From contig CANNGL010000004.1 in assembly GCA_947504205.1 (NCBI GenBank), positions 248,001 to 312,000 on the forward strand: 64,000 bases of DNA, read 5' to 3'. The stretch comes from an uncultured Litoreibacter sp. GTDB lineage: Bacteria > Pseudomonadota > Alphaproteobacteria > Rhodobacterales > Rhodobacteraceae. A program made the translations under genes and the position numbers. A model generated the notes under the pieces. The model worked only from the letters and a program-made list of their open reading frames with translations. It ran no database searches and was not told the origin of the DNA. This document shows, in pieces, positions 14,653 to 30,138 of this stretch (positions are counted from its first letter, which is position 1; each line of letters opens with the position of its first letter).

Positions 14653-15801
14653 CTACTTGCCCGACAGCTCTGCCAAGCCCTGCTCGACCGTCACGCGTTG
14701 CGGATCATCTTCGGGCAGATCAGCCACCAGCGGTTGCGCCGATTGCAGCGCGGCCAAGGCGTCTTCCCGCTGCCCCAGAACCGCATAGGCCCGTGCCAGT
14801 TGCAGCCAGCCTTGCAGATCGTCAGGCTCATCCTTCAAACGCTCTGCCAAACCGGCAACCATCGAGCGGATGAAATCCATACGTTCTTCCACCGACATAT
14901 CCTGAGCGGCGGCAACGTCTTCTTCAGTAGGTCCACGTGGCGCGTTTTCAAAAGCAGGCAACCCGACGGGCTCCAGCCCAAACTCTGCGCCCATCCGGTT
15001 GGCCTCTCGCAAGAAGACCTCCATCCAGGGCTGGGGCTGTCCCTCCGCCGCGATACGTTCGAGAATGATCCGGCGCGCCTCAGGGGTTTGACCTGCTTGC
15101 TCCAGAGCAACCGCCTTATAGTAGGTGCCAGCCGGGTTCAGAGGATCCAATTGCAGCGCGCGATCAATCGCCTTTTCGGCTTTTGGTGTGACCACCCCCT
15201 GCTCTGCGGCTATCAAAGCCTCCGCATATTGGGACAGCGTGGCCGAGGTCGCATCGTCACGGTCCACAACCCGCTCCCAAGCGCGCACGGCATCGTCAAA
15301 GCGGCTCATATTCATATAAGTGGTCGCCAAAAGCTCCCAGCCTTGGGTTTCACCGCCATCCGGCTCCGCGTTCAGGCGTGTCTCAAGCCGTTCGGTCAGT
15401 ACCGCCAGATCGGACCCCACTTGCTGCTCAGCGCTACGTTGCGCGAACGGAATAGAGGGCGTGCCCGGCGACCCTGTGACCGAATAAACCAACGCGCCGC
15501 CCAGCGGGATCAGTGCCGCCATCACAACCAGAACCATCGCACCGCCGCTACCGCGGACAGAGCTTCGGTCCTTGTCTGCGCTCAGCATCCGGCGCTTGAT
15601 CTCGATCTTCGCGGCCTCCGCTTCCGCGCTGGAAATCAGGCCCCGCGCCGCGTCGCGGTCCACCTCTGCCAATTGATCATTGAAGATGGCCAACGCCCCA
15701 TCTGCGCGATCCAGCGTCTCAGCGCCGTCCTTGTGCAAGGGCCACAGGACAACAAGGGCCGCAATCGCTGCCAAGGCAAAGGCCGCAATCCAGAAGATCA
15801 T
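14653..15801 (-). CDS. ccmI: Cytochrome c biogenesis protein CcmI
   Basis: CcmI holds apocytochrome c for haem ligation by the CcmF/CcmH complex. The 382-residue protein has two N-terminal membrane helices (near residues 1-20 and 87-110) flanking a cytoplasmic loop, then a periplasmic TPR domain (WELLATTYMNMSRFDDAVRA and similar repeats). Its start overlaps the ccmH stop by four bases. Last gene of ccmF-G-H-I. Confidence 0.93.
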   Translation of the reverse strand: MIFWIAAFALAAIAALVVLWPLHKDGAETLDRADGALAIFNDQLAEVDRDAARGLISSAEAEAAKIEIKRRMLSADKDRSSVRGSGGAMVLVVMAALIPLGGALVYSVTGSPGTPSIPFAQRSAEQQVGSDLAVLTERLETRLNAEPDGGETQGWELLATTYMNMSRFDDAVRAWERVVDRDDATSATLSQYAEALIAAEQGVVTPKAEKAIDRALQLDPLNPAGTYYKAVALEQAGQTPEARRIILERIAAEGQPQPWMEVFLREANRMGAEFGLEPVGLPAFENAPRGPTEEDVAAAQDMSVEERMDFIRSMVAGLAERLKDEPDDLQGWLQLARAYAVLGQREDALAALQSAQPLVADLPEDDPQRVTVEQGLAELSGK

Positions 15802-16253
15802 TTGTCGCCCTCGCTCAACAAATCCTTCACCCGCCGTTCTTCCTCGGCTGAAAGCCCCTTCGCGGCAGCCGCTGTCTTCTGGCGCGACAGGGTCAGAAAC
15901 ACGGCGCCCGCGCCAAATAAAAGGATCGCAAACGGTGCGATCCAGAGCGCATAGGTCGAGGGTTTAAACGGCGGTTTGAACAACACGAATTCGCCGTATC
16001 GCGCGACGAGAAATTCATAAACCTGCGCATCGCTGTCTCCGGCGACAAGCCGTTCACGGATCAGAAGTCTCAGGTCGCGCGCGACGCCAGCATTTGAGCT
16101 GTCGATCGGCTCATTTTGACACACCACACAGCGAACCTGTGCGCTGATGGCACGCGCGCGCTCTTCCAACACGGAGTCATCTAGTATCTCGTCCGGCTCT
16201 ACCGCGAAAAGCGGCGTCGCACAGAACAACAGCAGGCACAGCAACCGTTTCAC
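15798..16253 (-). CDS. ccmH: Cytochrome c biogenesis thiol oxidoreductase CcmH
   Basis: CcmH acts in the periplasm on the cysteines of apocytochrome c before haem attachment. The 151-residue protein has a signal peptide (MKRLLCLLLFCATPLFA), the redox motif RCVVCQNEPIDSS with cysteines 42 and 45, and one C-terminal membrane helix (LWIAPFAILLFGAGAVFLTL). This is the short CcmH/CcmL form; the TPR part is the separate ccmI gene. It overlaps ccmG and ccmI by four bases each. Confidence 0.95.
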   Translation of the reverse strand: MKRLLCLLLFCATPLFAVEPDEILDDSVLEERARAISAQVRCVVCQNEPIDSSNAGVARDLRLLIRERLVAGDSDAQVYEFLVARYGEFVLFKPPFKPSTYALWIAPFAILLFGAGAVFLTLSRQKTAAAAKGLSAEEERRVKDLLSEGDK

Positions 16254-16801
16254 GGATAATCCTCACGCAGGTCCGCGAGTGCTTTCTGAAGGCGTTTCAT
16301 CCCATCACCGACAACGGGACCCGCTTCGCGGTACAAAATGGTGCCGCCCGGAGCGATGATGAAAGTCTCAGGCACGCCCGTAACCCCCCACTCAATCCCG
16401 ACGCGTCCGGATAGATCGTGTCCAATGCGCTGATACGGATTGCCAAGCTCTTCGAGCCACGCAGCGGCGGCGTCAGCCTTGTCTTTATAGTTCAGGCCAA
16501 ACAAGGGAATTCCTTCCTCTTCGGCCAGACGAGTCAACAACGGGTGTTCCGCACGGCATGGTGCGCACCAGGAGGCAAAAACGTTGACGAGCGATAACTC
16601 CTCCAAGCTCGCCAGATCAGATTGCGCAAAACCGGGGGTGCCGACCCCATCGATGGCAGAAAGCTCGAACGCGGGCGCAGGCTTGTTGATCAGCGCAGAG
16701 GGGATCGAACCGGGGTCACGCCCATCTTGCAGGCCCCAAAGAAAGACCCCACCCAGAAACGCGACAATCGCCAATGGCAAGAAAAAGAGAATACGCCTCA
16801 T
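16250..16801 (-). CDS. ccmG: Periplasmic thioredoxin for cytochrome c maturation (CcmG/DsbE)
   Basis: A membrane-tethered thioredoxin that reduces apocytochrome c or CcmH disulfides. The N-terminal helix (FFLPLAIVAFLGGVFLWGL) anchors it; the redox site is WCAPC at 78-82, and the CcmG-typical cis-proline stretch is GVTGVPETFII. 183 residues is normal for the family. It starts 3 bases after the ccmF stop. Confidence 0.95.
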   Translation of the reverse strand: MRRILFFLPLAIVAFLGGVFLWGLQDGRDPGSIPSALINKPAPAFELSAIDGVGTPGFAQSDLASLEELSLVNVFASWCAPCRAEHPLLTRLAEEEGIPLFGLNYKDKADAAAAWLEELGNPYQRIGHDLSGRVGIEWGVTGVPETFIIAPGGTILYREAGPVVGDGMKRLQKALADLREDYP

Positions 16802-16804
16802 CTG

Positions 16805-18787
16805 CTACTCCGCTGGTGTTGCTGCGACAGGCGCACGTGTCTTGCGCGGGGCACCGACACGAAGCCTGCGGTCGCTGAGCGACAGCAATCCCCCGCACAC
16901 CAACAGCGCCGAGCCGATCCACAGGAAGTTCACCAGCGGCTCATAAAGCGCGCGCAAAACCCATTTGCCCTCGGAGCCTTCTGCGGCGGGTTCGGCAATC
17001 GACAGGTAAAGATCGCCCGCCAGAGTCTGACGGATATCGCTTTCGGTCGTGGTGGAACGCGCAACGGGGTATGTCCGGCGCTCAGGATAAAGTGTGGTGA
17101 TCTGCGCGCCGGCTCGCTCAACCTTGATCGTTGCCACCTGCGCCAGATAGTTCGGCCCACGTTCTTCGGAAATGCCCTCAAACGTCAGATCAAACCCCGC
17201 GACCTGCACCTGAGTACCGGGTTCAGCGAAGGCCACGACCTCTTCTTTCCACGCGGAAGAACCGATTACGCCCATCATCACTACACCGATGCCGATATGC
17301 GCCAAGGTCATGCCGTGGGAGGCGCGCGGCTGACGGCGGATACGCGACCACGCGTCCGCCTTGAACAGCTTGACGCGGCGGGCCCATTCCATCGCAGTCG
17401 CCCCGATCAGCCAGAATGCGATGCCCATCGAAACAACTGCCAGAACCGGTCCCCCGGTTGTGAAATACCAAACCGCCAGCGTGGCGAGGACGACCAGAGC
17501 GAGCAACAGCTTCATACGCGACAGCACGCCCGCCAGATCAGCACGCTTCCAGCTTAGAAACGGGCCAATGGCCATAACGATGATCAACGGCAGCGTCACT
17601 GGAATGAAGGACGCATTGAAGAACGGTGGCCCGACGGAGATTTTTTCATTCGTCATGGCTTCCAGAAACAGCGGATACAGCGTCCCAAACAGAACGGTCG
17701 CCGTGGCTGTGGCCAGAAGCAGGTTGTTGATCAGCAATCCTGCCTCGCGGGAGATGGGGGCAAACAGGCCCCCGCCCTCCATCGCTGGCGCGCGCACTGC
17801 AAACAGTGTCAGTGACCCGCCAATGGAGAGGCCCAACAGGCCCAGGATGTAAAGACCGCGCTCTGGGTCGACAGCAAAGGCATGAACCGATGTCAGCAGA
17901 CCCGATCGGACAATAAACGTACCGAGCAAAGACAGAGAAAATGTCAGAATGGCCAGCAGGATCGTCCAGCTTTTGAATGTATCCCGCTTCTCGGTCACGA
18001 TGGCCGAATGCAACAAAGCGGTCCCCAAGAGCCAAGGCATGAACGACACGTTTTCCACCGGGTCCCAGAACCACCAGCCGCCCCAGCCAAGTTCGTAATA
18101 GGCCCACCAAGAGCCCAGTGCGATGCCACCGGTCAACGCCACCCAAGCTGCTAACGTCCAAGGCCTGACCCAACGCGCCCATGCCGGATCAACGCGGCCC
18201 TCGATCAGGGCTGCAACGGCAAACGAGAAGACAATCGAGAACCCGACATAGCCGATGTAGAGCAGCGGCGGGTGGATCGCGAGCCCGATATCCTGCAACA
18301 GAGGGTTCAGGTCGTTGCCATCCATCGGCGGGGGGAAAACCCGTTCAAAAGGGTTGGATGTGAAAATCATGAAGCTGAGAAAGCCCACCGAAATCCACGC
18401 CTGCACCGAAAGCGTCCTCGCTTTAAGACCATTCGGAATATTTCCGCCGAACAGCGCCACGGCTGCCCCAAACAGCGCAAGAATGAGAACCCAGAGCAAC
18501 AAAGAGCCCTCGTGGTTGCCCCAAGTTCCCGCGATCTTGTAGATCATCGGCTTCAGCGAATTGGAATTCTGCACGACGTTCAAAACTGTGAAATCGCTCA
18601 CGATGTAGCTGCGCATCAGCACACCGAATGCGAAAGCGATCAGCAAGGCCTGCACGACAGATGTGGCTGTGCCCGCGCGCATCCACACCAGATTTCCGCG
18701 CGCCGCTCCCAGCATGGGCAACACCGACTGAACGCAAGCGGCAATCAGCGCCAGTGCAATCGCAAATTGTCCAAGCTCTGGGATCAT
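16805..18787 (-). CDS. ccmF: Haem lyase subunit CcmF
   Basis: CcmF is the large membrane protein that joins haem to apocytochrome c. The 660-residue chain has many membrane helices and the tryptophan-rich haem-handling motif WGGWWFWDPVENVSFMPWL. The reading frame runs on to 18844, but ATG 18787 (MIPELGQFAIALAL) gives the family N-terminus and has AAGGAGG upstream. ccmA-E are not in the window; the gene upstream is divergent and unrelated, so the ccm system is split in this genome. Confidence 0.96.
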   Translation of the reverse strand: MIPELGQFAIALALIAACVQSVLPMLGAARGNLVWMRAGTATSVVQALLIAFAFGVLMRSYIVSDFTVLNVVQNSNSLKPMIYKIAGTWGNHEGSLLLWVLILALFGAAVALFGGNIPNGLKARTLSVQAWISVGFLSFMIFTSNPFERVFPPPMDGNDLNPLLQDIGLAIHPPLLYIGYVGFSIVFSFAVAALIEGRVDPAWARWVRPWTLAAWVALTGGIALGSWWAYYELGWGGWWFWDPVENVSFMPWLLGTALLHSAIVTEKRDTFKSWTILLAILTFSLSLLGTFIVRSGLLTSVHAFAVDPERGLYILGLLGLSIGGSLTLFAVRAPAMEGGGLFAPISREAGLLINNLLLATATATVLFGTLYPLFLEAMTNEKISVGPPFFNASFIPVTLPLIIVMAIGPFLSWKRADLAGVLSRMKLLLALVVLATLAVWYFTTGGPVLAVVSMGIAFWLIGATAMEWARRVKLFKADAWSRIRRQPRASHGMTLAHIGIGVVMMGVIGSSAWKEEVVAFAEPGTQVQVAGFDLTFEGISEERGPNYLAQVATIKVERAGAQITTLYPERRTYPVARSTTTESDIRQTLAGDLYLSIAEPAAEGSEGKWVLRALYEPLVNFLWIGSALLVCGGLLSLSDRRLRVGAPRKTRAPVAATPAE

Positions 18788-18909
18788 TTTGGGGCGTGCC
18801 TCCTTATCCAGACCGATATGTCGGCATGCAGGCGGCGGGGTCAAGGTCGCGGCCCGCGACAGGGTGTCCTGCCCGGCTCACAATCGGGTCATCAGCTGAA
18901 AGCGCGGCA

Positions 18910-18938
18910 TTGCTGAATATCACTTGAATACGTATTCA
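18910..18938 (+). promoter_or_regulatory. Promoter overlapped by a LacI-type operator
   Basis: TGAATACGTATTCA at 18925-18938 is a perfect 14-bp palindrome with a central CG, the form typical of LacI/PurR-family operators. It overlaps a possible promoter: TTGCTG (18910-18915), 17-bp spacer, TATTCA (18933-18938). A wider inverted pair GCTGAATA (18912-18919) / TATTCAGC (18933-18940) also spans the site. The operon downstream encodes its own LacI-family protein, the obvious candidate ligand. Promoter boxes were read by eye. Confidence 0.7.
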
Positions 18939-18984
18939 GCTTAGGTAAGACTGCAAACGAATGTGCTATCTGGGAGGATCTGCC

Positions 18985-20313
18985 ATGGCGATCGAACATC
19001 TAAAACGCGGCAAACCCGAGACCGAGCGTCAGGATGATGATGCCAAGGTGCGTCAGGTGGTCGAAACGACACTCAAGGATATCGAAGCACGCGGGGATGC
19101 CGCTGTTCGGGAATTGTCCGAAAAGTTTGATAACTACTCGCCTCCCGCTTTCAAATTGAGCCAAAGCGACATTGATGCGCTGATGGCCAAGGTCAGCCCG
19201 CGCGACATGGAGGATCTCAAGTTCGCGCAGGACCAAGTGCGCAAGTTTGCCCAGGCCCAGCGCGACTCGATGCTTGATATCGAAGTAGAGCCAATGCCGG
19301 GCGTTATCCTCGGTCACAAGAATATCCCAGTTCAAAGCGTCGGCTGTTACGTGCCGGGCGGCAAATTCCCGATGGTGGCCTCCGCGCATATGTCGGTGGC
19401 AACGGCCTCCGTCGCGCAAGTCCCGCGCATCATCGCCTGCACCCCGCCCTTCAAGGGGGAGCCGAACCCGGCGGTGATCGCCGCGATGCATTTGGGCGGT
19501 GCGCATGAGATCTACGTGCTTGGCGGCATTCAAGGCATTGGCGCGATGGCCCTTGGCACCGAGACGATTGACCCCGTCCACATGCTCGTCGGTCCCGGCA
19601 ACGCCTTCGTGGCAGAAGCAAAACGGCAGCTGTTCGGGCGCGTCGGCATCGACCTGTTTGCAGGACCCACGGAAACGATGGTCATCGCCGATGACACCGT
19701 CGATGGCGAGATGTGCGCGACCGACCTCTTGGGTCAGGCGGAGCATGGCTACAACTCCCCCGCCGTTCTGGTCACGAACTCCCGCAAGCTGGCGACTGAC
19801 ACGCTGGCAGAGATCGATCGCATCCTGAAGATCATCCCGACCGCCGATACGGCATCCAAAAGCTGGGAGGATTATGGCGAGGTGATCCTGTGTGACACCT
19901 ATGACGAAATGCTGGAAGTGGCCGACGATATCGCGTCCGAGCATGTGCAGGTGATGACCGATCGCGATGATTGGTTCCTTGAGAACATGACCTGCTATGG
20001 CGCGCTCTTCCTTGGGCCGCGCACCAATGTCGCCAACGGGGACAAGGTGATCGGCACCAACCACACCCTACCCACCAAGAAGGCCGGGCGTTACACGGGC
20101 GGGCTTTGGGTCGGCAAATATCTGAAAACCCACAGCTATCAGAAGATCACAAGCGATGAGGCGGCGGCGGATATCGGCGCTTATGGATCCCGCCTGTGCT
20201 TACTGGAAGGCTTTGTCGGTCATGCAGAGCAATGCAACCTGCGCGTACGCCGCTACGGGGGCCTGAACGTGCCTTATGGCGGCCCCGCACCTTACAAGGA
20301 CGTGGCCGAGTAA
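18985..20313 (+). CDS. HisD-like NAD-dependent dehydrogenase (HpsN/sulfopropanediol-dehydrogenase type)
   Basis: This is a histidinol-dehydrogenase-family enzyme of 442 residues: a zinc-dependent oxidation of an alcohol with NAD. Family zinc and catalytic residues are present: Gln and His in [10 protein letters not shown], the Glu-His pair in ASEHVQVM, Asp and His in [14 protein letters not shown], and a late His in [13 protein letters not shown]. The setting argues against histidine synthesis: no other his gene, and a catabolic-looking operon under a LacI-type regulator. HisD paralogues in such settings include HpsN, which oxidises dihydroxypropanesulfonate to sulfolactate; no partner of that pathway is seen here, so the substrate stays open. 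ATG 18985 is chosen over 18961 because GGGAGGA lies at correct spacing. Confidence 0.85.
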
Positions 20314-21296
20314 TGGCGAGCGCCAGCGATAAAGCCGCCTATCGGGCGTTTTGGGAGGCCTTCCGCCACCCGGACGCCGACGGGCAACGGGCAGCCGTCA
20401 GAAAGTTCTTCGCCAACGACGCAGCGGTCAATATCGCGCATCCGATCAACGATCTTTCAGGGGCAGATGGCGTGATCGAGGGGTTTGTCGACCCACTTCT
20501 GCGCGCCTTCGAAGGGTTCTATTATCGCCCGGATATCCAGATCGCCGGTGTGTCCTTCGAGGGCAGCGACTGGACCTCCGGCATGGGCTATCTGGTCGGC
20601 ACGCATCGCAAGGATTGGTGCGGAATCAAACCGACCGACAAGCTGGCCTATATCCGCATCGGGGACTTCCACCGGATGGAGAACGGTCAGGCGGTTGAGA
20701 GCTATATCTATCTCGATATCCCCGAGTACCTGATCCAGATCGGCAGGTATCCTCTGCCCGCCCCACAAGGCTCCTGCTTTATGATCCCCGGCCCCGCCAC
20801 CCATGACGGGCTGCGAGAAGACGTGGGGGATGCCGAGCGCTCCGCCAGCACCTACAAGATCATGACCGACATGCTCGCCGGTCTGGCGACCGAGGACGAA
20901 CAGTGGCGGCCCTACTGGCATCCGAACATGATGTGGTACGGCCCCGCCGCCTTTGGCCGGTTTGTCGGGATCGAGGAATTTCAGAGGTTCCAGGTTCCGT
21001 TTGAGAACGCCTTTGACGGCTGGGGCGGCGGCTTGTCCCCCGACACGCCCACCAAGCATTTCACGCGCTTTGCCGATGGGGACTATTCCTGCATCGGCGG
21101 CTGGCCGTCCCTGCAAGGCACCCACACCGGTAAATATCTGGGCTTCGAGCCCACCGGCGTCACCACGCAGTTCCGTGTCTGCGACTGGTATCGTCGAGAA
21201 GGCGATCTTCTGGTGGAAAACTGGGTCTTCGTCGATTTGCCCGACGCGCTTTTGCAATGGGGCTATGACATGATGGCGGAACAGGCGAAGCAATGA
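20313..21296 (+). CDS. Tandem NTF2/SnoaL-like protein A
   Basis: A 327-residue soluble protein built from two SnoaL/NTF2-like units (about 5-150 and 185-320). The first has AVRKFFANDAAVNIAHPIND and the second WHPNMMWYGPAAFGRFVGIE; both end with the family's cone-closing strand (HRMENGQAVESYIYLDIPE and REGDLLVENWVFVDLPD). SnoaL-type folds serve as cyclases, hydrolases or isomerases, but no catalytic residue can be assigned. The reading frame is open further upstream, but ATG 20313 overlaps the dehydrogenase stop (TAATG). It shares layout with the genes at 21293 and 23297. Confidence 0.8.
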   Translation: MASASDKAAYRAFWEAFRHPDADGQRAAVRKFFANDAAVNIAHPINDLSGADGVIEGFVDPLLRAFEGFYYRPDIQIAGVSFEGSDWTSGMGYLVGTHRKDWCGIKPTDKLAYIRIGDFHRMENGQAVESYIYLDIPEYLIQIGRYPLPAPQGSCFMIPGPATHDGLREDVGDAERSASTYKIMTDMLAGLATEDEQWRPYWHPNMMWYGPAAFGRFVGIEEFQRFQVPFENAFDGWGGGLSPDTPTKHFTRFADGDYSCIGGWPSLQGTHTGKYLGFEPTGVTTQFRVCDWYRREGDLLVENWVFVDLPDALLQWGYDMMAEQAKQ

Positions 21297-22285
21297 TCGG
21301 GCCGCTCCGTGAAGCGCTTTATGATTTCGAGGAGGCGCCCGTGCGCGCCGCCTTGACTGATTGCTTTGCCGACGATGCAGTCATTCACCTTTGCCACCCT
21401 TTCGGCGATCTGAGTGGTCCGGATGCGTTCTACGAGGCCGCCCTCGCTCCGCTGCACCACGCCTTTCCCGATCTCGAACGCCGCGACTGGATCGTGGTGC
21501 AAGGCGAAACGGAGCATGGCGGCCATTGGATCGGATGTGGCGGATATTATACCGGACTTTTCGACGCGCCCTTCCTCGACATTCCCCCGACCGGTCATCA
21601 GGCCCACATGCGATTCCACGAATTCTACCGCATCGACGGCGGCAAGATCGTCGAGATGCAAGCGATCTGGGACATCCCCGAGCTGATGATGCAGGCAGGG
21701 GCATGGCCGATGGCCCCGTCTCTGGGTCGGGAATGGCTCACCCCTGCGCCCGCCACACAAGACGGCCTTGGCCCGCACGGATCAGGCGGCGCGGAGAGCC
21801 TCTCGACCGTGCGCGACATGCTGATTCATATGGGCAAACACCCTTCCGAGGGCGGTCCCGAAGTCATGGAAATGGAGCGCTTCTGGCATCCGCGCATGTC
21901 CTGGTATGGCCCTGCCGGCATCGGTACGGCTCGTGGAATTCAAGGGTTTCGCGACTGGCACCAGATCCCGTTTCTGTCCGCAATGCCCGACAGGGGCAGC
22001 TACCGCGACCAGATGACCTACCACTTCTTTGCCGAAGGCAATTATGTAGCCGTGACCGGTTGGCCCAACATGCGCCAGCACCTGACCCATGACGGCTGGC
22101 TTGGCATCGCCCCATCTGGCAAACTGGTCGAGCTTCGGTCTCTCGATTTCTGGCGTCTGGAAAACGGGCTTATCCGCGAAAACTGGGTGATGGTCGATCT
22201 TCTGGACGTCTACCGCCAGCTTGACGTCGATGTCTTGAGACGGATGCGTGAGTTTAACAAAGCAAGGCGAGCCAGTTATGCCTAG
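21293..22285 (+). CDS. Tandem NTF2/SnoaL-like protein B
   Basis: A 330-residue paralogue of the preceding gene with the same two-unit layout: DDAVIHLCHPFGDLSGPDAF in unit one and FWHPRMSWYGPAGIGTARGI in unit two, each followed by the closing strand (IVEMQAIWDIPELM; LIRENWVMVDLLDVY). The second unit is close enough to protein A to see by eye (WHPxMxWYGPA). It overlaps protein A by four bases (ATGA) and the LacI gene by eight. A paired role of A and B, perhaps as a hetero-oligomer or for successive steps, is inference. Confidence 0.8.
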   Translation: MIGPLREALYDFEEAPVRAALTDCFADDAVIHLCHPFGDLSGPDAFYEAALAPLHHAFPDLERRDWIVVQGETEHGGHWIGCGGYYTGLFDAPFLDIPPTGHQAHMRFHEFYRIDGGKIVEMQAIWDIPELMMQAGAWPMAPSLGREWLTPAPATQDGLGPHGSGGAESLSTVRDMLIHMGKHPSEGGPEVMEMERFWHPRMSWYGPAGIGTARGIQGFRDWHQIPFLSAMPDRGSYRDQMTYHFFAEGNYVAVTGWPNMRQHLTHDGWLGIAPSGKLVELRSLDFWRLENGLIRENWVMVDLLDVYRQLDVDVLRRMREFNKARRASYA

Positions 22286-23300
22286 TCGCCGCGTCACTGC
22301 CCTGGATGTTGCCAAGGAAGCTGGTGTCAGCCAGCCCACCGTCAGCCGCGTGTTTACGCCGGGAATGAAGGTGATCCCGGAAATGGAGAAGCGCGTCCGC
22401 GACGCCGCGAAGAAACTTGGCTATCGACCCAACGCCCTGGCACGCTCCTTGATCACCGGACAATCCAAGACCATCGGGCTGATCGTAGCCTATCTGAACA
22501 ACCCGTTTTATACGGAAGTGCTGGAAAAACTGAGCCACTCGCTGCGCGAGCGCGGCTACAACATCATGATCTTTCTGGCCGCCAATCATGCGGCGGATGT
22601 CGATGGTGTCGTGCAGGATTTGCTGGACCATCAGGTCGATGGGATCATCATGGCCTCGGTCTCTATCTCTTCCGCGCTGACGGACCGGCTGAAAGAGGAA
22701 GACGTCCCGCTGATCCTGTTCAACCGGGGCAAAGATGATCCGGACCTGACTTCCGTGACCTCGGCCAATGTAGATGGCGGGCGCAAGGTGGCAGAGTTCC
22801 TGATCCAAGGCGGCCACACGCGGATAGCGCATATCTCGGGCTGGCAAGGCGCCTCGACCGGACTTGATCGACGCCGGGGCTTCGAAGAAGGCTTGGCCGC
22901 GGCGGGATTGGAACCCATCGCCGTGGTTGACGGCCTGTTTTCGCGCGAAGCCTCTGCGGCAGCCGCACGCGCCCTATTTGCCAGCGCGCAGGCGCCGGAT
23001 GCAATCTTCGTGGGCAATGACCACATGGCATTCGCCGTTCTTGAAGTGCTGCGCAACGAGCTGGCTCTGGATGTGCCGGGCGATGTATCCGTTATCGGAT
23101 ATGACGATGTGGCCATGTCGGCTTGGGACAGTTTCCAGCTTACAACAGTGCGCCAGCCCGCCAACCGTATGGTCGAGGCCGCCGTCGATCATTTAATGGC
23201 ACAAATCTCCAGCAAAGAAACCGCCGCCGATCATATCGAGATCGACGGGCCGCTCATCGTTCGCAAAAGCGCACGCATACCTAAAGGATGGAAAGAATGA
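22278..23300 (+). CDS. LacI-family transcriptional regulator
   Basis: A 340-residue repressor-type protein. The N-terminal helix-turn-helix with hinge reads VTALDVAKEAGVSQPTVSRV, followed by the usual RPNALARSLITGQSKTIGLI and a periplasmic-binding-protein-like sensor domain (DAIFVGNDHMAFAVLEVL, GDVSVIGYDDVAMSAWDS). It lies in the middle of the operon it probably controls, and a matching operator palindrome sits over the operon promoter at 18925. ATG 22278 is chosen; the frame is open 30 bases upstream inside the previous gene. The inducer is unknown, presumably the pathway substrate or an intermediate. Confidence 0.93.
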   Translation: MPSRRVTALDVAKEAGVSQPTVSRVFTPGMKVIPEMEKRVRDAAKKLGYRPNALARSLITGQSKTIGLIVAYLNNPFYTEVLEKLSHSLRERGYNIMIFLAANHAADVDGVVQDLLDHQVDGIIMASVSISSALTDRLKEEDVPLILFNRGKDDPDLTSVTSANVDGGRKVAEFLIQGGHTRIAHISGWQGASTGLDRRRGFEEGLAAAGLEPIAVVDGLFSREASAAAARALFASAQAPDAIFVGNDHMAFAVLEVLRNELALDVPGDVSVIGYDDVAMSAWDSFQLTTVRQPANRMVEAAVDHLMAQISSKETAADHIEIDGPLIVRKSARIPKGWKE

Positions 23301-24292
23301 AGGGATTTTCAAACAAGTTCGAGGACTTCCCGGACTACATCATCAAGATCACCAAAGAGATTTGGGAAGATCGCGGCGTCGGCACGCTGAACCATTATTA
23401 TTCCGAAGATATCCCGGTCCGGTCTCCGATGGGCATCCAGCGGGGCAACCAGGCTGTTATCGCGTCCACCATGGCGACCATCAACGAATTCCCTGACCGT
23501 CAGCTTTTTGGAGAGGATGTGATCTGGTCCGGCAATGAGGATGACGGTTTTTTATCCTCGCACCGTTTGCTGACCACCGCCACTCATACACGCGACGGGC
23601 AGTTCGGGCCGGCCACCGGCAAACACTGGCGCGCCCGCGTGATCGCAGATTGCGCCGCCAAGGATGACACAATCTATGACGAATGGCTGATCCGCGATTA
23701 TGGCGGGATTGTCCGCCAAATGGGGATCGACCCGCGAAGCTTTGCCGCGGAACTGATTGCGCGCGAAGGCGGCGCACAGAACGCAACCCTCCCCTTCGTG
23801 CCCGCAAATGACGTCGATGGGGGCTATCACGGGACCGGCAATGACAATGAATGGGGCGCACGCTACGCCGCGACGCTCACCCGCATCATGGACAAGGACT
23901 TCAACCACATCTTTGAAGCTTATGACCGTGCGGTGATCGGCGAATATGCGGGCGCACAGACCGCGATCAGCCATGCTCAGGTTTTGGAATTTTGGGTCGG
24001 GCTGCGGTCATCGTTCCCGGAGGCTGAGTTCAGGATACATCACCAGATCGGCATGGATGGCGGAATGATGAGCCCAAGAGCGGCCATCCGATGGTCACTC
24101 GACGGCAAACACACGGGTTGGGGCAGCTATGGCGAGCCCACAGGCGCCGATGTGCACGTCATGGGTATGTGCCACGCAGAATACGGACCCTTTGGACCAC
24201 GCGGGTCTGGCACCGGCCTTCGACGGGAATTTGCGCTTTATGACGAGATCGCCATCTGGAAGCAAATCCTGATGCAAAGCGGCGGCGCTTAG
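23297..24292 (+). CDS. Tandem NTF2/SnoaL-like protein C
   Basis: The third two-unit SnoaL/NTF2-like protein of the operon, 331 residues. Unit one has TLNHYYSEDIPVRSPMGIQR, a SnoaL-like polyketide-cyclase pattern; unit two runs from about residue 195 (IFEAYDRAVIGEYAGAQTAI). It differs more from A and B than these do from each other. ATG 23297 overlaps the LacI stop (ATGA) and has AAAGGA nine bases upstream; the ATG at 23288 is too close to that site. Function unknown. Confidence 0.75.
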   Translation: MKGFSNKFEDFPDYIIKITKEIWEDRGVGTLNHYYSEDIPVRSPMGIQRGNQAVIASTMATINEFPDRQLFGEDVIWSGNEDDGFLSSHRLLTTATHTRDGQFGPATGKHWRARVIADCAAKDDTIYDEWLIRDYGGIVRQMGIDPRSFAAELIAREGGAQNATLPFVPANDVDGGYHGTGNDNEWGARYAATLTRIMDKDFNHIFEAYDRAVIGEYAGAQTAISHAQVLEFWVGLRSSFPEAEFRIHHQIGMDGGMMSPRAAIRWSLDGKHTGWGSYGEPTGADVHVMGMCHAEYGPFGPRGSGTGLRREFALYDEIAIWKQILMQSGGA

Positions 24293-24921
24293 TGGACAGC
24301 TACGGCAAACATATGTTCACGCCCAACGTGCGCACCGAGCAAGACAAGGTCGGCATGGGCGAGCGCTACGCGCAGGTCTACGAAAGCCGTTTGCGTGACC
24401 CGCTGGATGCCGATGCACGCGCCTTCATCGAAAGCCGTGACAGCTTCTACATGGCCACGGTCTCCGAGACCGGCTGGCCCTATCTGCAGCATCGCGGCGG
24501 ACCAGCGGGCTTTCTGAAAGTTCTCGGTCCACAGCAGATCGGCTTTGCCGATTACCGTGGCAACAAGCAATTCATCTCCAAGGGAAACCTGCGCGCAGAC
24601 ACGCGCGTCTCGCTATTCCTCATGGATTATCCGCGCAAGGCTCGACTGAAGCTGATCGGGCACGGCACAATGATCGAGGCGTCAGACGACCCGGAGCTCA
24701 CCAAATTGCTGAGCACCGACGGGGCTGCTCCTGCCGAGCGGTTGATGACCATCGATCTGGTCGCAATGGACTGGAACTGCCCGAAATATATTACGCCACG
24801 CCTCACCGAAGCAGAAATCGAGACCGCGCTCGGCCCGAGACTGAGCGCTTTGAACACTCACATAGAAAGCCTTGAAGCGCGACTGGATGCGCTCGATCCC
24901 GATTGGAAAGCGAAAGAATGA
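24292..24921 (+). CDS. Pyridoxamine 5'-phosphate oxidase-family flavoprotein
   Basis: A 209-residue protein of the FMN-binding split-barrel (PPOX-like) type. Core motifs are DSFYMATVSETGWPYLQHRG and IGFADYRGNKQFISKGNL, followed by the barrel strand RLMTIDLVAMDWNCPKYI; a helical tail ends the chain. Such proteins bind FMN or F420 and reduce or oxidise small compounds. It starts with GTG 24292, which overlaps the preceding stop (TAGTG), and its stop overlaps the bicupin start (ATGA). The reaction cannot be specified; a redox step in the operon's pathway is plausible. Confidence 0.85.
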   Translation: MDSYGKHMFTPNVRTEQDKVGMGERYAQVYESRLRDPLDADARAFIESRDSFYMATVSETGWPYLQHRGGPAGFLKVLGPQQIGFADYRGNKQFISKGNLRADTRVSLFLMDYPRKARLKLIGHGTMIEASDDPELTKLLSTDGAAPAERLMTIDLVAMDWNCPKYITPRLTEAEIETALGPRLSALNTHIESLEARLDALDPDWKAKE

Positions 24922-25886
24922 CCCCACAGGAAATGGAACAAAACATCGTCCGATATGGCGACCTCGTCCCCTGCAAGACTGCCTTTATTGATGCGCATAC
25001 GCCGGGCTCGGATCAGAAAGAGAATTTCACGGTGATTGGTGGTGGTGTCTCTGAAAGTCCGGATCAGCATGTGCATATTGCCGAAAAGATTGGCTTCAAC
25101 ATCGGGGCCGCCGGACAACCTCCGAAATGTCGGAACTCCCTGCATTCGCATCGCACGGCCGAGGTGTTTTTCGTACTCAAAGGCCGATGGCGGTTTTTCT
25201 GGGGTCGTTGGGGGGATGCCGGCGAGGTGGTTCTGGAAGAAGGCGACATCATCAATATCCCAACAGGTATATTCCGCGGTTTTGAGAATATCGGGCCCGA
25301 TTACGGGATGATCATGGCTATCCTCGGCGGTGACGATGCTGGTGGCGGTGTGATCTGGGCCCCGCAGGTGATCGAAGATGCTGCCGATCACGGGCTCATC
25401 CTTGGCGAAAACGGCAAGCTCTATGACAGCAAACAAGGCGATACCCTGCCCCACGGTGTCGGGGCAATGCCGCTGCTGACCGACGCGCAGTTGAAAGACT
25501 ACCCAGAGCCCGTGGCACAAGACGTGGTGCCAAATTACGTAGCGCGGTATTGGGACCTCATGGCGCTGGCGGACAAGGCCCCTGCAAAGGTTATCGGCGA
25601 GACCGGCAAACTTCGCGACAAGCCGGGCTTCGAGGTTGATTTCATCACGCGCGGCTCTGCGACTGGGAAGATGCACAAGCATGATCGCGCCTCCGTCCTG
25701 ATGCCGATGCGTGGCCATTGGCGACTGGACTGGCAAGGAGGGTCCACGGTGCTGAACCCCGGCGACACGGCAATGGTGCCCGCTCATGTTGAACATAGTG
25801 CGGTTCCCTCGATGACGGGGGAGGCCAGCCTTTATCACATCATAGCCACCGATGATCCGGCAGGCCCCACACATACATTCCAGTAA
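24918..25886 (+). CDS. Bicupin protein, possible dioxygenase or lyase
   Basis: A 322-residue protein with two cupin barrels. Cupin 1 has NSLHSHRTAEVFFVLKG (HxH and Glu), but its second motif reads PTGIFRGFEN, with Arg where the metal-binding His is expected. Cupin 2 has KMHKHDRASVLMPMRG (HxH, no Glu at the usual place) and PAHVEHSAVPS with the His present. This pattern resembles gentisate-dioxygenase-like bicupins but metal occupancy cannot be predicted. Start ATG 24918 overlaps the PPOX stop. Last gene of the operon; a palindromic terminator region follows. Confidence 0.8.
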   Translation: MTPQEMEQNIVRYGDLVPCKTAFIDAHTPGSDQKENFTVIGGGVSESPDQHVHIAEKIGFNIGAAGQPPKCRNSLHSHRTAEVFFVLKGRWRFFWGRWGDAGEVVLEEGDIINIPTGIFRGFENIGPDYGMIMAILGGDDAGGGVIWAPQVIEDAADHGLILGENGKLYDSKQGDTLPHGVGAMPLLTDAQLKDYPEPVAQDVVPNYVARYWDLMALADKAPAKVIGETGKLRDKPGFEVDFITRGSATGKMHKHDRASVLMPMRGHWRLDWQGGSTVLNPGDTAMVPAHVEHSAVPSMTGEASLYHIIATDDPAGPTHTFQ

Positions 25887-25925
25887 CTCTTCCCATGTTC
25901 TGGAAATATCCCGGGAGGGGGTCTT

Positions 25926-25980
25926 GGGGAGGGCTGGCCCTCCCCCTGATATGAACGGGGTTTGGGGGCGCTGCCCCCAA
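25926..25980. repeat. GC-rich palindromic intergenic repeats
   Basis: Two compact palindromes stand side by side: GGGGAGGG (25926-25933) with CCCTCCCC (25938-25945), and TTGGGGGC (25962-25969) with GCCCCCAA (25973-25980). Sequences of this look recur in Rhodobacterales intergenic DNA in my experience, but I could not search the genome. Placed between the cupin operon and the MFS gene. Confidence 0.55.
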
Positions 25981-25992
25981 GGCCCGCGCGGC

Positions 25993-26034
25993 CCGAGCGC
26001 AAAAGTGTGATGCGCGCCGAAGGCGCTCGGTTTT
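25993..26034 (+). terminator. Terminator-like stem after the palindromic repeats
   Basis: CCGAGCGC (25993-26000) pairs with GCGCTCGG (26023-26030) and is followed by TTTT. The 22-base loop is long, so strength is uncertain, but it is positioned to end the seven-gene operon. Confidence 0.55.
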
Positions 26035-26046
26035 GGCACCTATACA

Positions 26047-26063
26047 CTCCCGCCACACGGGAG
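26047..26063 (+). promoter_or_regulatory. Leader hairpin before the MFS gene
   Basis: CTCCCG (26047-26052) pairs with CGGGAG (26058-26063) around a 5-base loop, ending 12 bases before the MFS start codon. It could affect translation of the transporter mRNA; no T run follows, so it is not a terminator. Confidence 0.35.
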
Positions 26064-26075
26064 TAGCGTCGCGCC

Positions 26076-27293
26076 ATGAGCGCAGCTTCGATCCTCGACA
26101 GTCGCACTTCGTGGATGCGGCTTACCCTGACACTCGTAATCGCCATCGTTGGCAATGCGGGAATGTGGTCGGCCATTGTCGTGCTGCCCGACATGCAGGC
26201 AGAGTTTGGTCTTGGTCGGGCCGACAGCTCCCTTCCCTACACGCTGTTCATGCTTGGCTTCGCCGTTGGCAGCTTCGGTATGGGCAAACTGGTGGACAAG
26301 CTCGGGGTGACCCGGGCGATCTGGATCTCATCGGTCGTCACCATAGTTGCGTTCACTCTTGCCAGTCTCAGCCCCATCTATTGGATCGTGGCCCTGCTTC
26401 ACGCCGTTCTTGGTTTCGCCACCGCCACCTTCTTCGGGCCGCTCATGGCCGATATTTCGCTCTGGTTCTTCCGGCGCCGCGGTATTGCCGTGGCCATCGC
26501 CGCCAGCGGCAACTACCTTGCCGGTGCCATTTGGCCAATCCTTCTGAGCGACGTGATTGCCGAGCAAGGCTGGCGCGGAGCCTATCTGGCACTTGCCGCT
26601 ATCACGCTGGTTGTCATCCTGCCCCTGTCAGTTTTCCTGCGCCAACAGGTTCCTGCAGAGGCCATCGCCACGGCAGATGCCCGGGCCAGCGCACGCGCGT
26701 CCGCCGTCTCCATCTCCCCGCGCCTCTTAACCGGGCTTTTGATTGTTGCGGCTCTTGGATGTTGCGTTGCGATGTCCATGCCTCAGGTCCATATCGTGGC
26801 CTATTGCGTGGATCTGGGCTACGGACCGGCGGTCGGCGCAGAGATGCTGTCCGTGATGCTGCTGGGCGGGGTCATCTCCCGACTGATCTCAGGGCTGATC
26901 GCTGATAAGCTCGGCGGCGTTGTAACGCTGCTGATCGGCTCCACGCTGCAATGTATCGCACTTTTTCTCTACCTGCCCTTTGACGGTCTTGTTCCGCTCT
27001 ACATGGTTTCGGCTGTCTTCGGGCTTAGCCAAGGTGGGATCGTCCCCGCCTACGCGCTCGTTGTGCGTGAGTACATGCCCGCCCGTGAAGCCGGTGCCCG
27101 CGTTGGCCTCGTGATTGCCGCGACCATGGTCGGCATGGCCCTTGGCGGGTGGATGTCCGGCTGGATTTACGATCTCACCCGGTCCTATCAAGCGGCCTTC
27201 CTCAACGGGATCGCGTGGAACATCCTGAATGTGGCGATCATGCTGCTGATCCTCTTCCGGGCCAAATCACGCGCCCTGCCAAATCCGGCATAG
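26076..27293 (+). CDS. MFS transporter
   Basis: A 405-residue major facilitator with about twelve membrane helices. The loop 2-3 signature is GMGKLVDKLGVTRAIWIS and the C-terminal half has its counterpart ISGLIADKLGGVVTLLIG. The pattern best fits the OFA/monocarboxylate-like branch, though the substrate is not readable. It lies on the same strand after the LacI-type operon, but stem-loops separate them, so co-regulation is likely only if it has its own operator or receives read-through. A bidirectional terminator follows the stop. Confidence 0.9.
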   Translation: MSAASILDSRTSWMRLTLTLVIAIVGNAGMWSAIVVLPDMQAEFGLGRADSSLPYTLFMLGFAVGSFGMGKLVDKLGVTRAIWISSVVTIVAFTLASLSPIYWIVALLHAVLGFATATFFGPLMADISLWFFRRRGIAVAIAASGNYLAGAIWPILLSDVIAEQGWRGAYLALAAITLVVILPLSVFLRQQVPAEAIATADARASARASAVSISPRLLTGLLIVAALGCCVAMSMPQVHIVAYCVDLGYGPAVGAEMLSVMLLGGVISRLISGLIADKLGGVVTLLIGSTLQCIALFLYLPFDGLVPLYMVSAVFGLSQGGIVPAYALVVREYMPAREAGARVGLVIAATMVGMALGGWMSGWIYDLTRSYQAAFLNGIAWNILNVAIMLLILFRAKSRALPNPA

Positions 27294-27298
27294 AAAAA

Positions 27299-27320
27299 CC
27301 CCGCGGATCGCGCCGCGGGG
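27299..27320. terminator. Bidirectional terminator between the MFS and ABC operons
   Basis: An 8-bp GC stem (CCCCGCGG with CCGCGGGG) closes a 6-base loop. An A run precedes it and T/C-rich sequence follows, so it can serve both convergent units. Confidence 0.85.
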
Positions 27321-27346
27321 TCTCTCAACTTTCAAACAGAAGCGGC

Positions 27347-28348
27347 TTAGTTCAAGGCTGCATCCGTAATGGCTGATGTCCAGGCACCTTCCGGCTCTTT
27401 TGTAATCACCGGATCAGAACCACCTGCCAGCAACGTCGCCACAGTGCGCTTGAAATCGGCCTCGTCAAGTGCACCATTGGAGCCAGCGGTCAGCTTGGCA
27501 ATCTCGCCCATCATGCGCTTTTGATGCGCTTCGGTCTGTGCGCCGGTTTCGTCGTTATCGAGCACGATACCAGCCGCTTCATCCGGGTTCTCTTCCGCGT
27601 ATTTCCAGCCCTTCATCGACGCGCGCACAAAGCGGACCATCTTGTCCTGGAAGACGGGATCGTTCAGGTTTTCTTCCAGCGCATAGATGCCGTCTTCCAG
27701 CGTCGCCACACCCTGATCTTCATATTTGAAGGTCACGAGCTCATCTTCGGATACGCCCGCATCCAGCACCTGACCATATTCATTGTAGGTCATGGTGGAG
27801 ATACAGTCGGCCTGACGTTGCAACAGCGGGTCAACATTGAAGCCCTGCTTGAGAACCGTCACGCCATCATCGCCGCCATCGGTCGGAATGCCTTCCTGGC
27901 TCATCCAGCTCAGGAACGGATATTCGTTGCCAAAGAACCAGACACCGATTGTCTTGCCCTTGAAATCAGCAGGTGAGGTGATGCCCGTGTCCTTCCAGCA
28001 GGTCAGCATCAAGCCGGATGACTTGAAAGGCTGTGCGATGTTCACGACGGGCAGGCCCTTTTCACGCGCAGCCAGCGCCGAGGGCATCCAGTTCAGCATG
28101 ACGTCAGCGCCTCCACCGGCCAGAACTTGTGGCGGTGCAATGTCAGGACCTCCGGGCAGGATCGTGACCTCCAGCCCTTCTTCATCGTAGAACCCCTTGT
28201 CGAGTGCCACATAGTACCCGGCAAATTGGGCCTGAGTGACCCATTGCAGTTGCAGTTTCACGGTATTGGCATGGCCATCTGCGGTCGCAAGCTGCGGCGT
28301 CGTGGCCAAGGCAAGCGCCATGGCAGCGGATGCGAATAGTTTTTTCAT
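27347..28348 (-). CDS. NMT1/THI5-like ABC transporter substrate-binding protein
   Basis: Periplasmic binding protein of 333 residues with a signal peptide (MKKLFASAAMALALATTPQLATA) and the NMT1-type opening LQLQWVTQAQFAGYYVALDKGFY. This family binds thiamine-precursor pyrimidines, riboflavin-like or hydantoin/pyrimidine compounds; the adjoining dihydropyrimidinase and carbamoylase genes favour a pyrimidine-like ligand. It is the last gene of the cluster, after two permeases. No TPP riboswitch-like leader was found, which fits a catabolic and not a thiamine role. Confidence 0.88.
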   Translation of the reverse strand: MKKLFASAAMALALATTPQLATADGHANTVKLQLQWVTQAQFAGYYVALDKGFYDEEGLEVTILPGGPDIAPPQVLAGGGADVMLNWMPSALAAREKGLPVVNIAQPFKSSGLMLTCWKDTGITSPADFKGKTIGVWFFGNEYPFLSWMSQEGIPTDGGDDGVTVLKQGFNVDPLLQRQADCISTMTYNEYGQVLDAGVSEDELVTFKYEDQGVATLEDGIYALEENLNDPVFQDKMVRFVRASMKGWKYAEENPDEAAGIVLDNDETGAQTEAHQKRMMGEIAKLTAGSNGALDEADFKRTVATLLAGGSDPVITKEPEGAWTSAITDAALN

Positions 28349-28381
28349 TTTTGTCTTCCTCCAGGTTGAGTGGTTTTGCTC

Positions 28382-29227
28382 TTATCCTCTTTGCGAAGGG
28401 TGCCAGAACGTCACCCCTTTTTCTATTGCGGCAACCACGCCGTAAAAGGCGGAGCCCGCAAGGGCTGCCACCACGATCTCTGCCCAGACCATATCAAGGG
28501 CCAGCTGGCCCACCGAGGTCGAGATGCGAAAGCCCATTCCTACAATGGGCGAGCCGAAGAACTCTGCCACGATCGCCCCGATCAGGGCCAGCGTGGTCGA
28601 AATCTTCAGCCCGTTGAAGATGAACGGCATGGCAGCGGGCAAGCGCAGTTTCATGAGGCTCGCCCAGTAACTCGCGCCATAGGTCCTCATCAGATCGCGC
28701 TGCATGGCGGTGGTCTCCTGCAAGCCCGCCACAGTATTGACCAGCATGGGAAAGAAAACCATCACAACCACCACAGCGGCTTTTGACTGCCAGTCAAACC
28801 CGAACCACATGACCAGAATGGGCGCGGTTCCGATGATGGGCAAGGCGGCGATGAAGTTGCCCACGGGCAAAAGCCCCCGCCTCAGGAAATCAAACCTATC
28901 TGCAAGAATGGCCACCACAAAGGCCGACACACATCCGATCACGTAGCCGCTCAGAGCGCCCTTCACAAAGGTCTGCACGAAATCCGCCCACAATGTCGGC
29001 ACTTCGCTGGCAATCCGCGCAACAATCTGGCTGGGTGGCGGCAATATGACCAACGGGACGGCCAGACCGCGCACGACCAGCTCCCAGACCACGAGGATTG
29101 TCAGACCAAAGATCAAGGGCACTCCAAACCGTACCGCTTGCGTGTGGGACAGACCAGAATTCGCCAGCCGCACGTTCAGCCACCAGGCGGCGATCCAGAG
29201 GATCAGGGCAAGCAGAACCAGCGTCAT
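28382..29227 (-). CDS. ABC transporter permease (NMT1-type system)
   Basis: A 281-residue inner-membrane permease with six or so helices and the binding-protein-dependent transport loop MKLRLPAAMPFIFNGLKIST, which contacts the ATPase. Its start overlaps the stop of the other permease by four bases, so the two probably form a heterodimeric channel with the ATPase at 30409. Confidence 0.9.
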   Translation of the reverse strand: MTLVLLALILWIAAWWLNVRLANSGLSHTQAVRFGVPLIFGLTILVVWELVVRGLAVPLVILPPPSQIVARIASEVPTLWADFVQTFVKGALSGYVIGCVSAFVVAILADRFDFLRRGLLPVGNFIAALPIIGTAPILVMWFGFDWQSKAAVVVVMVFFPMLVNTVAGLQETTAMQRDLMRTYGASYWASLMKLRLPAAMPFIFNGLKISTTLALIGAIVAEFFGSPIVGMGFRISTSVGQLALDMVWAEIVVAALAGSAFYGVVAAIEKGVTFWHPSQRG

Positions 29228-30138
29228 GACAACCCCATCCGTCTAAGTGTAACACGCTGAATCAAGGTCACGATCGCAACCAGCCCGGCCGCCACGATCG
29301 CGGCCGCCAGCAAGGCGGACCAAATCTGGATCGTCTGTCCGTAATAACTGCCCGTCAACATGCGCGCACCCAATCCCCGGATCGCCCCAGTGGGCAATTC
29401 TCCGACAATGGCCCCCACCAATGAGGCCGCGATTCCGATTTTGAGTGAGGCAAAGAGATAGGGCATCGAGGCGGGCAATCGCAGTTTCCAAAAGCCCTGC
29501 GCATTGCTGGCATTGTAGGTCTTGAGCAAATCGAGCTGCATGTGATCAGGGCTCCTGAGGCCTTTGACCATTCCGACGACAACCGGAAAGAAACTCAAAT
29601 AGGCAGAAATGATCGCTTTCGGCAGCAATCCCTGCACCCCGACCGAGTTCAAAACCACAATGATCATCGGCGCGATGGCAAGGATCGGAATGGTTTGCGA
29701 TGCAATCGCCCAGGGCATGACGCTCATATCCATCGCACGATTATGCACAATGCCGATGGCCAGAACGATCCCGAGCCCGGTGCCGATGGCGAAGCCCAAA
29801 AGCGTCGCCGACAAGGTAATCCAACCATGAAACACCAAAGACCGCTTGGACGTGATCTTCTTCTCCACGGTCGTGTCCCATAACTCACGCGCCACTTGAT
29901 GAGGCGCCGGCAAGCGCGGACGGTCCTGATTGAACGTGCTCGCGATATGCTCGGAGTTATTGGCGGCCAGCGAAATCCCGGACAAATCGCGGCGCGCCGC
30001 CGCTCCCTCGGGCGAGATCACCGCCCCGCCCCGTTCTGCGGTCGTGAGGGCTGCATGCATGTTCATTGGGATCACGGCCAGATACCAAAGCGCGAAAATC
30101 GCTGCGACAACCGTCAAGACCGGCAGAAATGATTTCAT
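29224..30138 (-). CDS. ABC transporter permease (NMT1-type system)
   Basis: A 304-residue permease with an N-terminal helix, a long periplasmic stretch (about residues 30-105) unlike the partner permease, then the usual helices and the ATPase-contact loop FWKLRLPASMPYLFASLKIG. A 270-bp spacer with large inverted repeats separates it from the ATPase gene, an odd break inside a transporter operon. Confidence 0.9.
   Translation of the reverse strand: MKSFLPVLTVVAAIFALWYLAVIPMNMHAALTTAERGGAVISPEGAAARRDLSGISLAANNSEHIASTFNQDRPRLPAPHQVARELWDTTVEKKITSKRSLVFHGWITLSATLLGFAIGTGLGIVLAIGIVHNRAMDMSVMPWAIASQTIPILAIAPMIIVVLNSVGVQGLLPKAIISAYLSFFPVVVGMVKGLRSPDHMQLDLLKTYNASNAQGFWKLRLPASMPYLFASLKIGIAASLVGAIVGELPTGAIRGLGARMLTGSYYGQTIQIWSALLAAAIVAAGLVAIVTLIQRVTLRRMGLS

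Follow-up and report, generated by a model that had tools for sequence, protein, structure and literature searches.

A HisD-like dehydrogenase operon of an uncultured Litoreibacter, probably part of a scattered LacI-controlled catabolic regulon

The window analysed here is a stretch of 64,000 nucleotides from an uncultured Litoreibacter sp. (Rhodobacteraceae; contig CANNGL010000004.1, positions 248,001 to 312,000), and the subject is an operon of seven genes at 18985-25886, all on the plus strand and overlapping at every junction, as read from open reading frames (ORFs), Pfam and NCBIfam profiles and the junctions themselves. The genes encode a HisD-like dehydrogenase, three NTF2/SnoaL-like proteins, a LacI-family regulator, a PPOX-type flavoprotein and a bicupin, and an operator-like site precedes them:

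18924-18939, no strand: candidate LacI operator TTGAATACGTATTCAG, 46 bp before the HisD ATG, with one mismatch to TTGNATACGTATNCAA
18985-20313, plus: HisD-like NAD-dependent dehydrogenase of the GKFPM class (Pfam Histidinol_dh, 439.9 bits; motif; tree)
20313-21296, plus: NTF2A, tandem SnoaL/NTF2-like protein (Pfam SnoaL, two stretches)
21293-22285, plus: NTF2B, tandem SnoaL/NTF2-like protein (Pfam SnoaL, two stretches)
22278-23300, plus: LacI-family regulator, proposed repressor of the regulon (Pfam LacI and Peripla_BP_3; in 39 of 50 relative loci)
23288-24292, plus: NTF2C, tandem SnoaL/NTF2-like protein (Pfam SnoaL, two stretches; structure model and fold search)
24292-24921, GTG start, plus: PPOX-type (pyridoxamine oxidase-like) flavoprotein, an optional member (Pfam PNPOx_N, 39.5 bits; cut-off 28.1)
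24918-25886, plus: bicupin (His76, His78 and Glu82 invariant; Arg120 at the usual place of the fourth ligand)

The overlaps measure, in gene order, 1, 4, 8, 13 (or 4), 1 and 4 bp; the one between the LacI gene and NTF2C is 13 bp, or 4 bp if NTF2C starts at its second ATG (23297). An earlier, sequence-only reading of this stretch had named the same seven families, overlapping on one strand, and both the ORFs and the profile matches confirmed it; of its range of 1-8 bp, the overlap at all junctions stood, while the LacI/NTF2C junction may exceed the range. The HisD-like gene was taken to start at the ATG at 18985, behind a plausible ribosome-binding site (GGGAGG); the ORF list begins at 18961.

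Pfam SnoaL was over its cut-off in NTF2A, NTF2B and NTF2C, with two stretches in each. The predicted structure of NTF2C contained two NTF2 domains (mean pLDDT 93), with IdmH and other SnoaL-like proteins as its best solved matches, and the two-cupin fold of the bicupin was supported by predicted structure and Foldseek. The tandem NTF2 proteins form a large paralogous family; a solitary gene elsewhere in the genome (G000:C1:440299-441237, locus L054), beside a fabF-looking ORF, encodes a 50% relative of the divergent NTF2 protein that the cluster has at locus L059.

The cluster in related genomes

Relatives of NTF2A were found in 81 of 198 genomes of the same family, and a scan for NTF2C over the contigs of named genomes yielded the 50 loci on which the gene counts of the cluster are based; several of these loci are short contigs, so that the counts are lower bounds. 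They revealed a recurring cluster of up to about 15 genes, comprising a CUT1 importer, NTF2/SnoaL proteins (one to five per cluster), a HisD-like enzyme, a short-chain dehydrogenase (SDR), a LacI regulator, a bicupin, a MetE-like protein, a hydrolase and an RraA-like protein. The importer is assigned to CUT1 by its SBP_bac_1 binding protein, two permeases and a MalK-type ATPase with OB and TOBE domains. At least 41 of the loci had HisD, 39 LacI, 49 NTF2C (the query), 45 the cupin, 34 the CUT1 ATPase, 34 the SDR, 39 the MetE-like protein, 31 the alpha/beta hydrolase, 21 the RraA-like protein and four the PPOX gene; HisD and the CUT1 ATPase shared a locus in at least 32, and a GMC oxidoreductase was present in eight. 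Named carriers included Ruegeria, Octadecabacter, Yoonia, Loktanella, Rubellimicrobium, Tagaea, rhizobial metagenome-assembled genomes (MAGs) and a Granulosicoccaceae MAG.

A comparison of gene order across relatives had been proposed as a check by the sequence-only reading. Six of the seven window genes are kept in unchanged order in the nearest relative (L065), and HisD, LacI, NTF2C and cupin were found together in 34 of the 50 loci, several of them short contigs, a co-occurrence which argues that the gene set is more than chance. The PPOX gene was not found in L065 or in the congeneric locus L138, where HisD and cupin, as positive controls, were both found. A 173-aa ORF without PPOX similarity occupies the PPOX place in L065, between NTF2C and cupin (10986-11507).

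Matches to the HisD clade were present in 96 of the 198 family genomes (E up to 1e-200) and matches to the MetE-like protein in 78 (E up to 1e-150). Both were present in 76 genomes, in 61 of them within 15 kb of each other, and the MetE-like protein occurred without HisD in two (G157 and G168); the test of this co-occurrence, in which relatedness was ignored, gave a Fisher p of 5e-33. The operon is regarded as the enzyme part of a widespread and apparently undescribed breakdown system of alphaproteobacteria. Two further observations were made on the relatives: in locus L144 (G188:C2:55000-74900) about 8.9 kb appear to be directly duplicated, with the HisD gene present twice, and an (S)-ureidoglycine aminohydrolase family protein near the cluster in four loci (one scanned, over the cut-off) was judged a chance neighbour.

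The window operon itself carries no importer, SDR, MetE-like, hydrolase or RraA genes. Contig C1 of the same genome carries the genes of a full CUT1 importer (about 134-138.5 kb; 58-79% identity to the L059 importer), and the SDR (61%), MetE-like protein (76%) and hydrolase (57%) are grouped on C4 (about 207-211 kb). Seven genes as the whole pathway were thus rejected, as the importer is part of it and the SDR, the MetE-like protein and the hydrolase probably are too; the earlier claim of a seven-gene catabolic operon was supported as to the operon, with an incomplete gene set and an optional PPOX member.

In the MetE-like protein (own copy at C4:208 kb), H243, C245, E277 and C343, which we take to be the zinc ligands of cobalamin-independent methionine synthase, were conserved in at least 95% of 51 filtered sequences. 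The RraA-like cluster member, encoded outside the window, matched Pfam RraA-like with 55.8 bits (cut-off 24.5), and its R128 and D129, presumably the catalytic Arg-Asp pair, were conserved in 95% or more of the 22 sequences left after filtering by length and identity. Presumed catalytic residues were conserved also in the hydrolase and the SDR of the cluster.

Operator-like site and proposed pathway

A perfect palindrome, TGAATACGTATTCA, lies upstream of HisD at 18925-18938, inside TTGAATACGTATTCAG. Matches to the consensus TTGCATACGTATGCAA at 13 or more of its 16 positions numbered 108 in 81 relative loci, of which 57 have one, a count to be read as a description and not as an independent test, since the consensus was derived from the same 81 loci, among which four pairs (L037/L095, L039/L072, L047/L078 and L062/L106) each represent one region counted twice. 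The own-genome loci L054, L063 and L064, which lack a cluster member of interest, were included among the 81. Shuffled controls gave 15, 8 and 10 (dinucleotide) and 7 (plain) sites, and 85 of the 108 sites lie near the start of an importer ATPase or binding-protein gene.

A search of the whole genome (3.79 Mb) for the core TGNATACGTATNC gave four places, and none with the reversed control: at the window operon, 73 bp before the substrate-binding-protein (SBP) gene of the full CUT1 importer, at the start of the SDR/MetE-like/hydrolase group on C4, and inside an unrelated ORF (by eye a TRAP small permease). In the congeneric genome G171 only two places carried it (reversed control 0): one precedes the HisD operon, and the other lies 75 bp ahead of the SBP gene of the importer, a gene located separately by protein search. 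A LacI operator of the form TTGCATACGTATGCAA can explain the scatter of the putative regulon genes in this genome, and the importer seems to be switched on through the same LacI-type repressor as the operon.

The operon probably supplies a LacI-controlled catabolic regulon with its regulator and some of its enzymes; the CUT1 importer would be encoded elsewhere, and HisD, SDR and aldolase would form the core. Besides the origin of the consensus and the double counting, several points weigh against this reading. The longer pattern TTGNATACGTATNCAA, with two mismatches allowed, gave 3 matches in the window's own genome versus 5 in the reversed control, per strand; it matched the window site and two other places and missed the importer site because the outer bases differ there. 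The core TGNATACGTATNC was chosen when the first three of the four own-genome sites were known, and the G171 HisD site had also been seen, so that only the G171 importer site counts as an independent prediction. The site on C4 runs into the likely start codon of the SDR gene, and G171 shows no such site at its own SDR. At the limit applied, the MetE-like protein was missing from 20 of the 96 HisD genomes, and there are members of the HisD class that lack NTF2 or cupin, which makes the HisD step broader than the pathway itself. In this genome no protein was clearly homologous to RraA (34% over 110 aa), and the last step would here need another enzyme. The RraA-like, MetE-like and bicupin proteins all fell well short of the curated cut-offs for the functional families to which they are similar (for RraA-like, 20.9 bits versus 304.5 in the curated aldolase model LigK). 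As regards its metal site, the bicupin does not have the three His and one Glu of classical metal-dependent cupins: His76, His78 and Glu82 were invariant in 35 aligned sequences, with Arg120 at the usual place of the fourth ligand, and the ligands of its second cupin were not conserved.

The operon, the conserved cluster, the shared operator-like site, the separate HisD class and the conserved catalytic residues are seen in the sequence, and we infer the regulation, the order of reactions and every chemical step of the following scheme. The CUT1 (sugar-type) ABC importer would bring in a small polyhydroxylated compound, and LacI would come off its operator in the presence of the substrate or of an intermediate, which would switch on operon and importer together. 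The tandem NTF2/SnoaL proteins, the bicupin and the alpha/beta hydrolase, joined in many members by the MetE-like protein, would turn what is imported into an intermediate with the group HOCH2-C(OH)-. Its CH2OH group would be oxidised to a carboxylate by the HisD-like enzyme, in a four-electron oxidation with two NAD+, and the partner SDR would make a ketone. An RraA-type aldolase (GarL/HpaI-like in other contexts) would then split a 4-hydroxy-2-oxo acid by a retro-aldol reaction into pyruvate and a second oxo acid. Aldolases of the RraA family specific for 4-hydroxy-4-methyl-2-oxoglutarate (HMG) or 4-carboxy-4-hydroxy-2-oxoadipate (CHA) use 4-hydroxy-2-oxo acids that bear a carboxylate at C4, which matches the group that HisD would install. 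In favour of this core, an SDR stands within 3 kb of HisD in 71 of 86 clade loci, all 86 having 3 kb or more of sequence on either side and the window being one of the other 15. Away from the NTF2 cluster, the HisD-SDR pair comes together with LacI regulators and transporters of the TRAP or CUT2 type, and in two plasmid loci with an aldolase (GarL/HpaI-like beside HisD in L175, by annotation in L177; the one scanned was below the cut-off), and RraA occurs in L168, L169 and L171. The proposal from the sequence alone, a catabolic operon with an alcohol-oxidising HisD-like enzyme and no matching described pathway, is supported.

A possible but doubtful alternative is a deoxy-sugar-acid route, in which HisD and SDR would turn a 3-deoxy aldonate-like HOOC-CH(OH)-CH2-CH(OH)-CH2OH, or a close polyol, into 4-hydroxy-2-oxoglutarate, to be cleaved by an aldolase. 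It draws on the contexts of the HisD class, which is accompanied by CUT1, CUT2 and TRAP transporters, by LacI regulators, and by a D-psicose-epimerase-like protein and aldolases of the GarL/HpaI-like kind, the last two below curated cut-offs. The topology HOCH2-C(X)-CH2-C/S-Y would also fit histidinol and sulfopropanediol (DHPS). The NTF2, bicupin and MetE-like proteins would be left unexplained by this route. A polyol, as the sequence-only reading had suggested, or a sugar acid is a candidate substrate favoured by the class of importer and by these other contexts.

It is very unlikely that the cluster is a catabolic pathway for cyclohexenones of the mycosporine or gadusol type, which are sunscreens of algae and cyanobacteria. 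HisD would here oxidise the ring CH2OH beside the tertiary C5-OH to a carboxylate, the MetE-like zinc enzyme would take the methyl of the C2 methoxy group to give a cyclic acireductone, the bicupin would open it to CHA, and the CHA aldolase would yield pyruvate and oxaloacetate; the NTF2 proteins would remove the amino-acid side groups. CHA is the substrate of the RraA-family CHA aldolases. The enzyme types match, the names of carrier species suggest algal, ascidian, sponge and cyanobacterial partners, and the bicupin matched an acireductone dioxygenase profile, very weakly and with no single stretch passing (E 0.00045). Relatives from soil and roots, the altered cupin metal site and the absence of a clear RraA in this genome speak against it, and no paper on bacterial catabolism of mycosporine-like amino acids was found among the matches listed in the open-access literature.

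The LacI-controlled regulon with a CUT1 importer and a HisD/SDR/aldolase core is preferred. Its parts belong to known families; what appears undescribed is their combination, the scatter of the regulon and the HisD class: among the matches listed in the open-access literature, none described the cluster or HisD enzymes with the GKFPM motif. The operator makes the regulon testable and points to which of the scattered genes belong together, and the regulon could lead to a common carbon source of marine and plant-associated alphaproteobacteria.

The HisD-like enzyme class

The HisD-like protein was over the cut-off of both Pfam PF00815 (439.9 bits) and NCBIfam hisD (TIGR00069, 422.8 bits, cut-off 243.8), and its nearest solved structures by sequence were the DHPS dehydrogenase CpHpsN (8v35) and the (R)-DHPS dehydrogenase 8wwe (E 1e-111 to 1e-114). 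One study states that His126, in the motif G-R-Y-A/S-H, marks HpsN against G-S-A-P-L in HisD, and that it binds the sulfonate (PMC11382572). The window protein reads GKFPM, with Met at the place of His126 (CpHpsN numbering, as below). The same motif was present in 92 of 94 clade ORFs (89 distinct; exceptions L160 and L161), L113 conforming when its C-terminal 460 residues were used. The protein keeps the zinc ligands Gln248, His251, Asp352 and His411, the catalytic Glu318 and His319, and Lys353, all of which were kept in the 94 clade ORFs; for the window copy, the sequence-only reading had claimed the zinc and catalytic residues.

In the tree, where CpHpsN forms a long branch, the window clade was separated from CpHpsN and a second copy of the same genome, on C2, with 100/99 support on both sides, and also from the biosynthetic-type copy. 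The C2 copy has the HpsN-type motif GRYAH (L063, 3-10635) and lies about 8 kb from a gene for sulfoacetaldehyde acetyltransferase, xsc (one model over the cut-off), and from Pta-like and Ack-like proteins, which were below their cut-offs; L063 is a probable sulfonate locus. By motif, the window protein may be placed in a third class of the HisD family, being neither a histidinol nor a DHPS dehydrogenase.

It is accordingly very unlikely that the window protein is a DHPS dehydrogenase and that the operon handles sulfonates, for all that its closest solved structures are CpHpsN and 8wwe, the sulfonate-binding Lys353 is kept and the HisD-SDR-TRAP units elsewhere resemble hps clusters. The replacement of His126 throughout most of the clade, the GRYAH copy near xsc in the same genome and the separate clade all stand against it, and no sulfite-releasing lyase was recognised among the neighbours scanned or annotated, part of them having been left unscanned. 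The sulfonate substrate that the sequence-only reading had drawn from the analogy with HpsN is weakened on the same grounds. That the window copy is the histidine-biosynthetic enzyme, in spite of its NCBIfam hisD score and of RefSeq-type annotation calling its relatives hisD, is hardly credible, as the earlier reading also held: its motif is not GSAPL, and the C5 copy of this genome is the best HisD (Pfam 554.7 versus 439.8 bits; NCBIfam hisD 528.5) and has Tyr where the window class and HpsN have Lys353, itself reading GLASY, not GSAPL, in the alignment.

Eleven of the 176 plasmid records with a match to the HisD class were viewed, and ten of these name the gene hisD, with the term 'histidine biosynthetic process'. 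Such annotations would be put right by a third HisD-family class that is clearly marked by its motif, and about half of the sampled family genomes carry the class (96/198). Three of the plasmids (L167, L170 and L176; Rhizobium johnstonii pRL8, Ancylobacter and Rhizobium CIAT894) encode a HisD of the same class, 83-84% identical, with a TetR regulator, a cyclase-family protein, an SDR and XdhC or xanthine-dehydrogenase-type genes and without a cupin, a setting from which the substrate of HisD might be learned. Five loci (L102 13565, L105 15716, L113 10550, L152 7051 and L162 11580) have, near the cluster, a further HisD-family protein that is 43-47% identical to the window protein; the motif was read in three of them and is GRYPL or GRFPL. 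An amidase lies beside it in L102 (Pfam), with similar ORFs in L152 and L162 (by eye), and the L102 gene has an operator-like site of its own.

Flanking genes and known systems

Upstream of the operon lies a divergent ORF, presumably similar to ccmF, with a counterpart in L065 that is 88% identical. Downstream, an MFS gene (26076-27293) was rejected as an operon member, being separated by a gap of about 190 bp, present in none of the 50 relative loci and absent from the nearest relatives L065 and L138. An NMT1-type substrate-binding protein, two permeases and an ATPase are encoded on the minus strand at 27347-31206, and this group adjoins the operon in L065 and L138 too. Riboswitch control was rejected, as window positions 14000-34000 gave no Rfam match at gathering thresholds, and terminator and promoter scans gave counts below the shuffled expectation.

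Among known systems, HpsN shares with the window enzyme a HisD-family sequence, the zinc ligands, the catalytic residues and Lys353, and the window class also often has an SDR as its neighbour, with a TRAP transporter in other contexts; it differs in having Met for His126 (GKFPM), in forming a separate clade and in its cluster neighbours, which are CUT1, LacI, NTF2 and cupin genes, whereas those of HpsN are hpsOP/suyAB. Histidinol dehydrogenase HisD has in common with it the superfamily, the zinc and catalytic residues and the name given by automatic annotation, and is set apart by Tyr in place of Lys, another motif at 122-126, the catabolic neighbours of the window class and the better-scoring copy elsewhere. 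The bicupin resembles the bicupin dioxygenases and their kin (quercetin 2,3-dioxygenase, 1y3t and 1juh; oxalate decarboxylase, 1j58) in fold (Foldseek E about 1e-15, TM about 0.5, rmsd 8.6-12), but it is only 14-15% identical to them, with two His and one Glu conserved in the first cupin only and Arg120 at the fourth ligand. Finally, LacI-controlled CUT1 sugar-uptake operons have the same SBP_bac_1 protein, permeases, MalK-type ATPase, LacI regulator and palindromic operator-like site, whereas the genes found here in place of sugar kinases and isomerases are those for HisD, NTF2, bicupin, MetE-like and RraA proteins, and the genome of the window has importer and regulator on different contigs.

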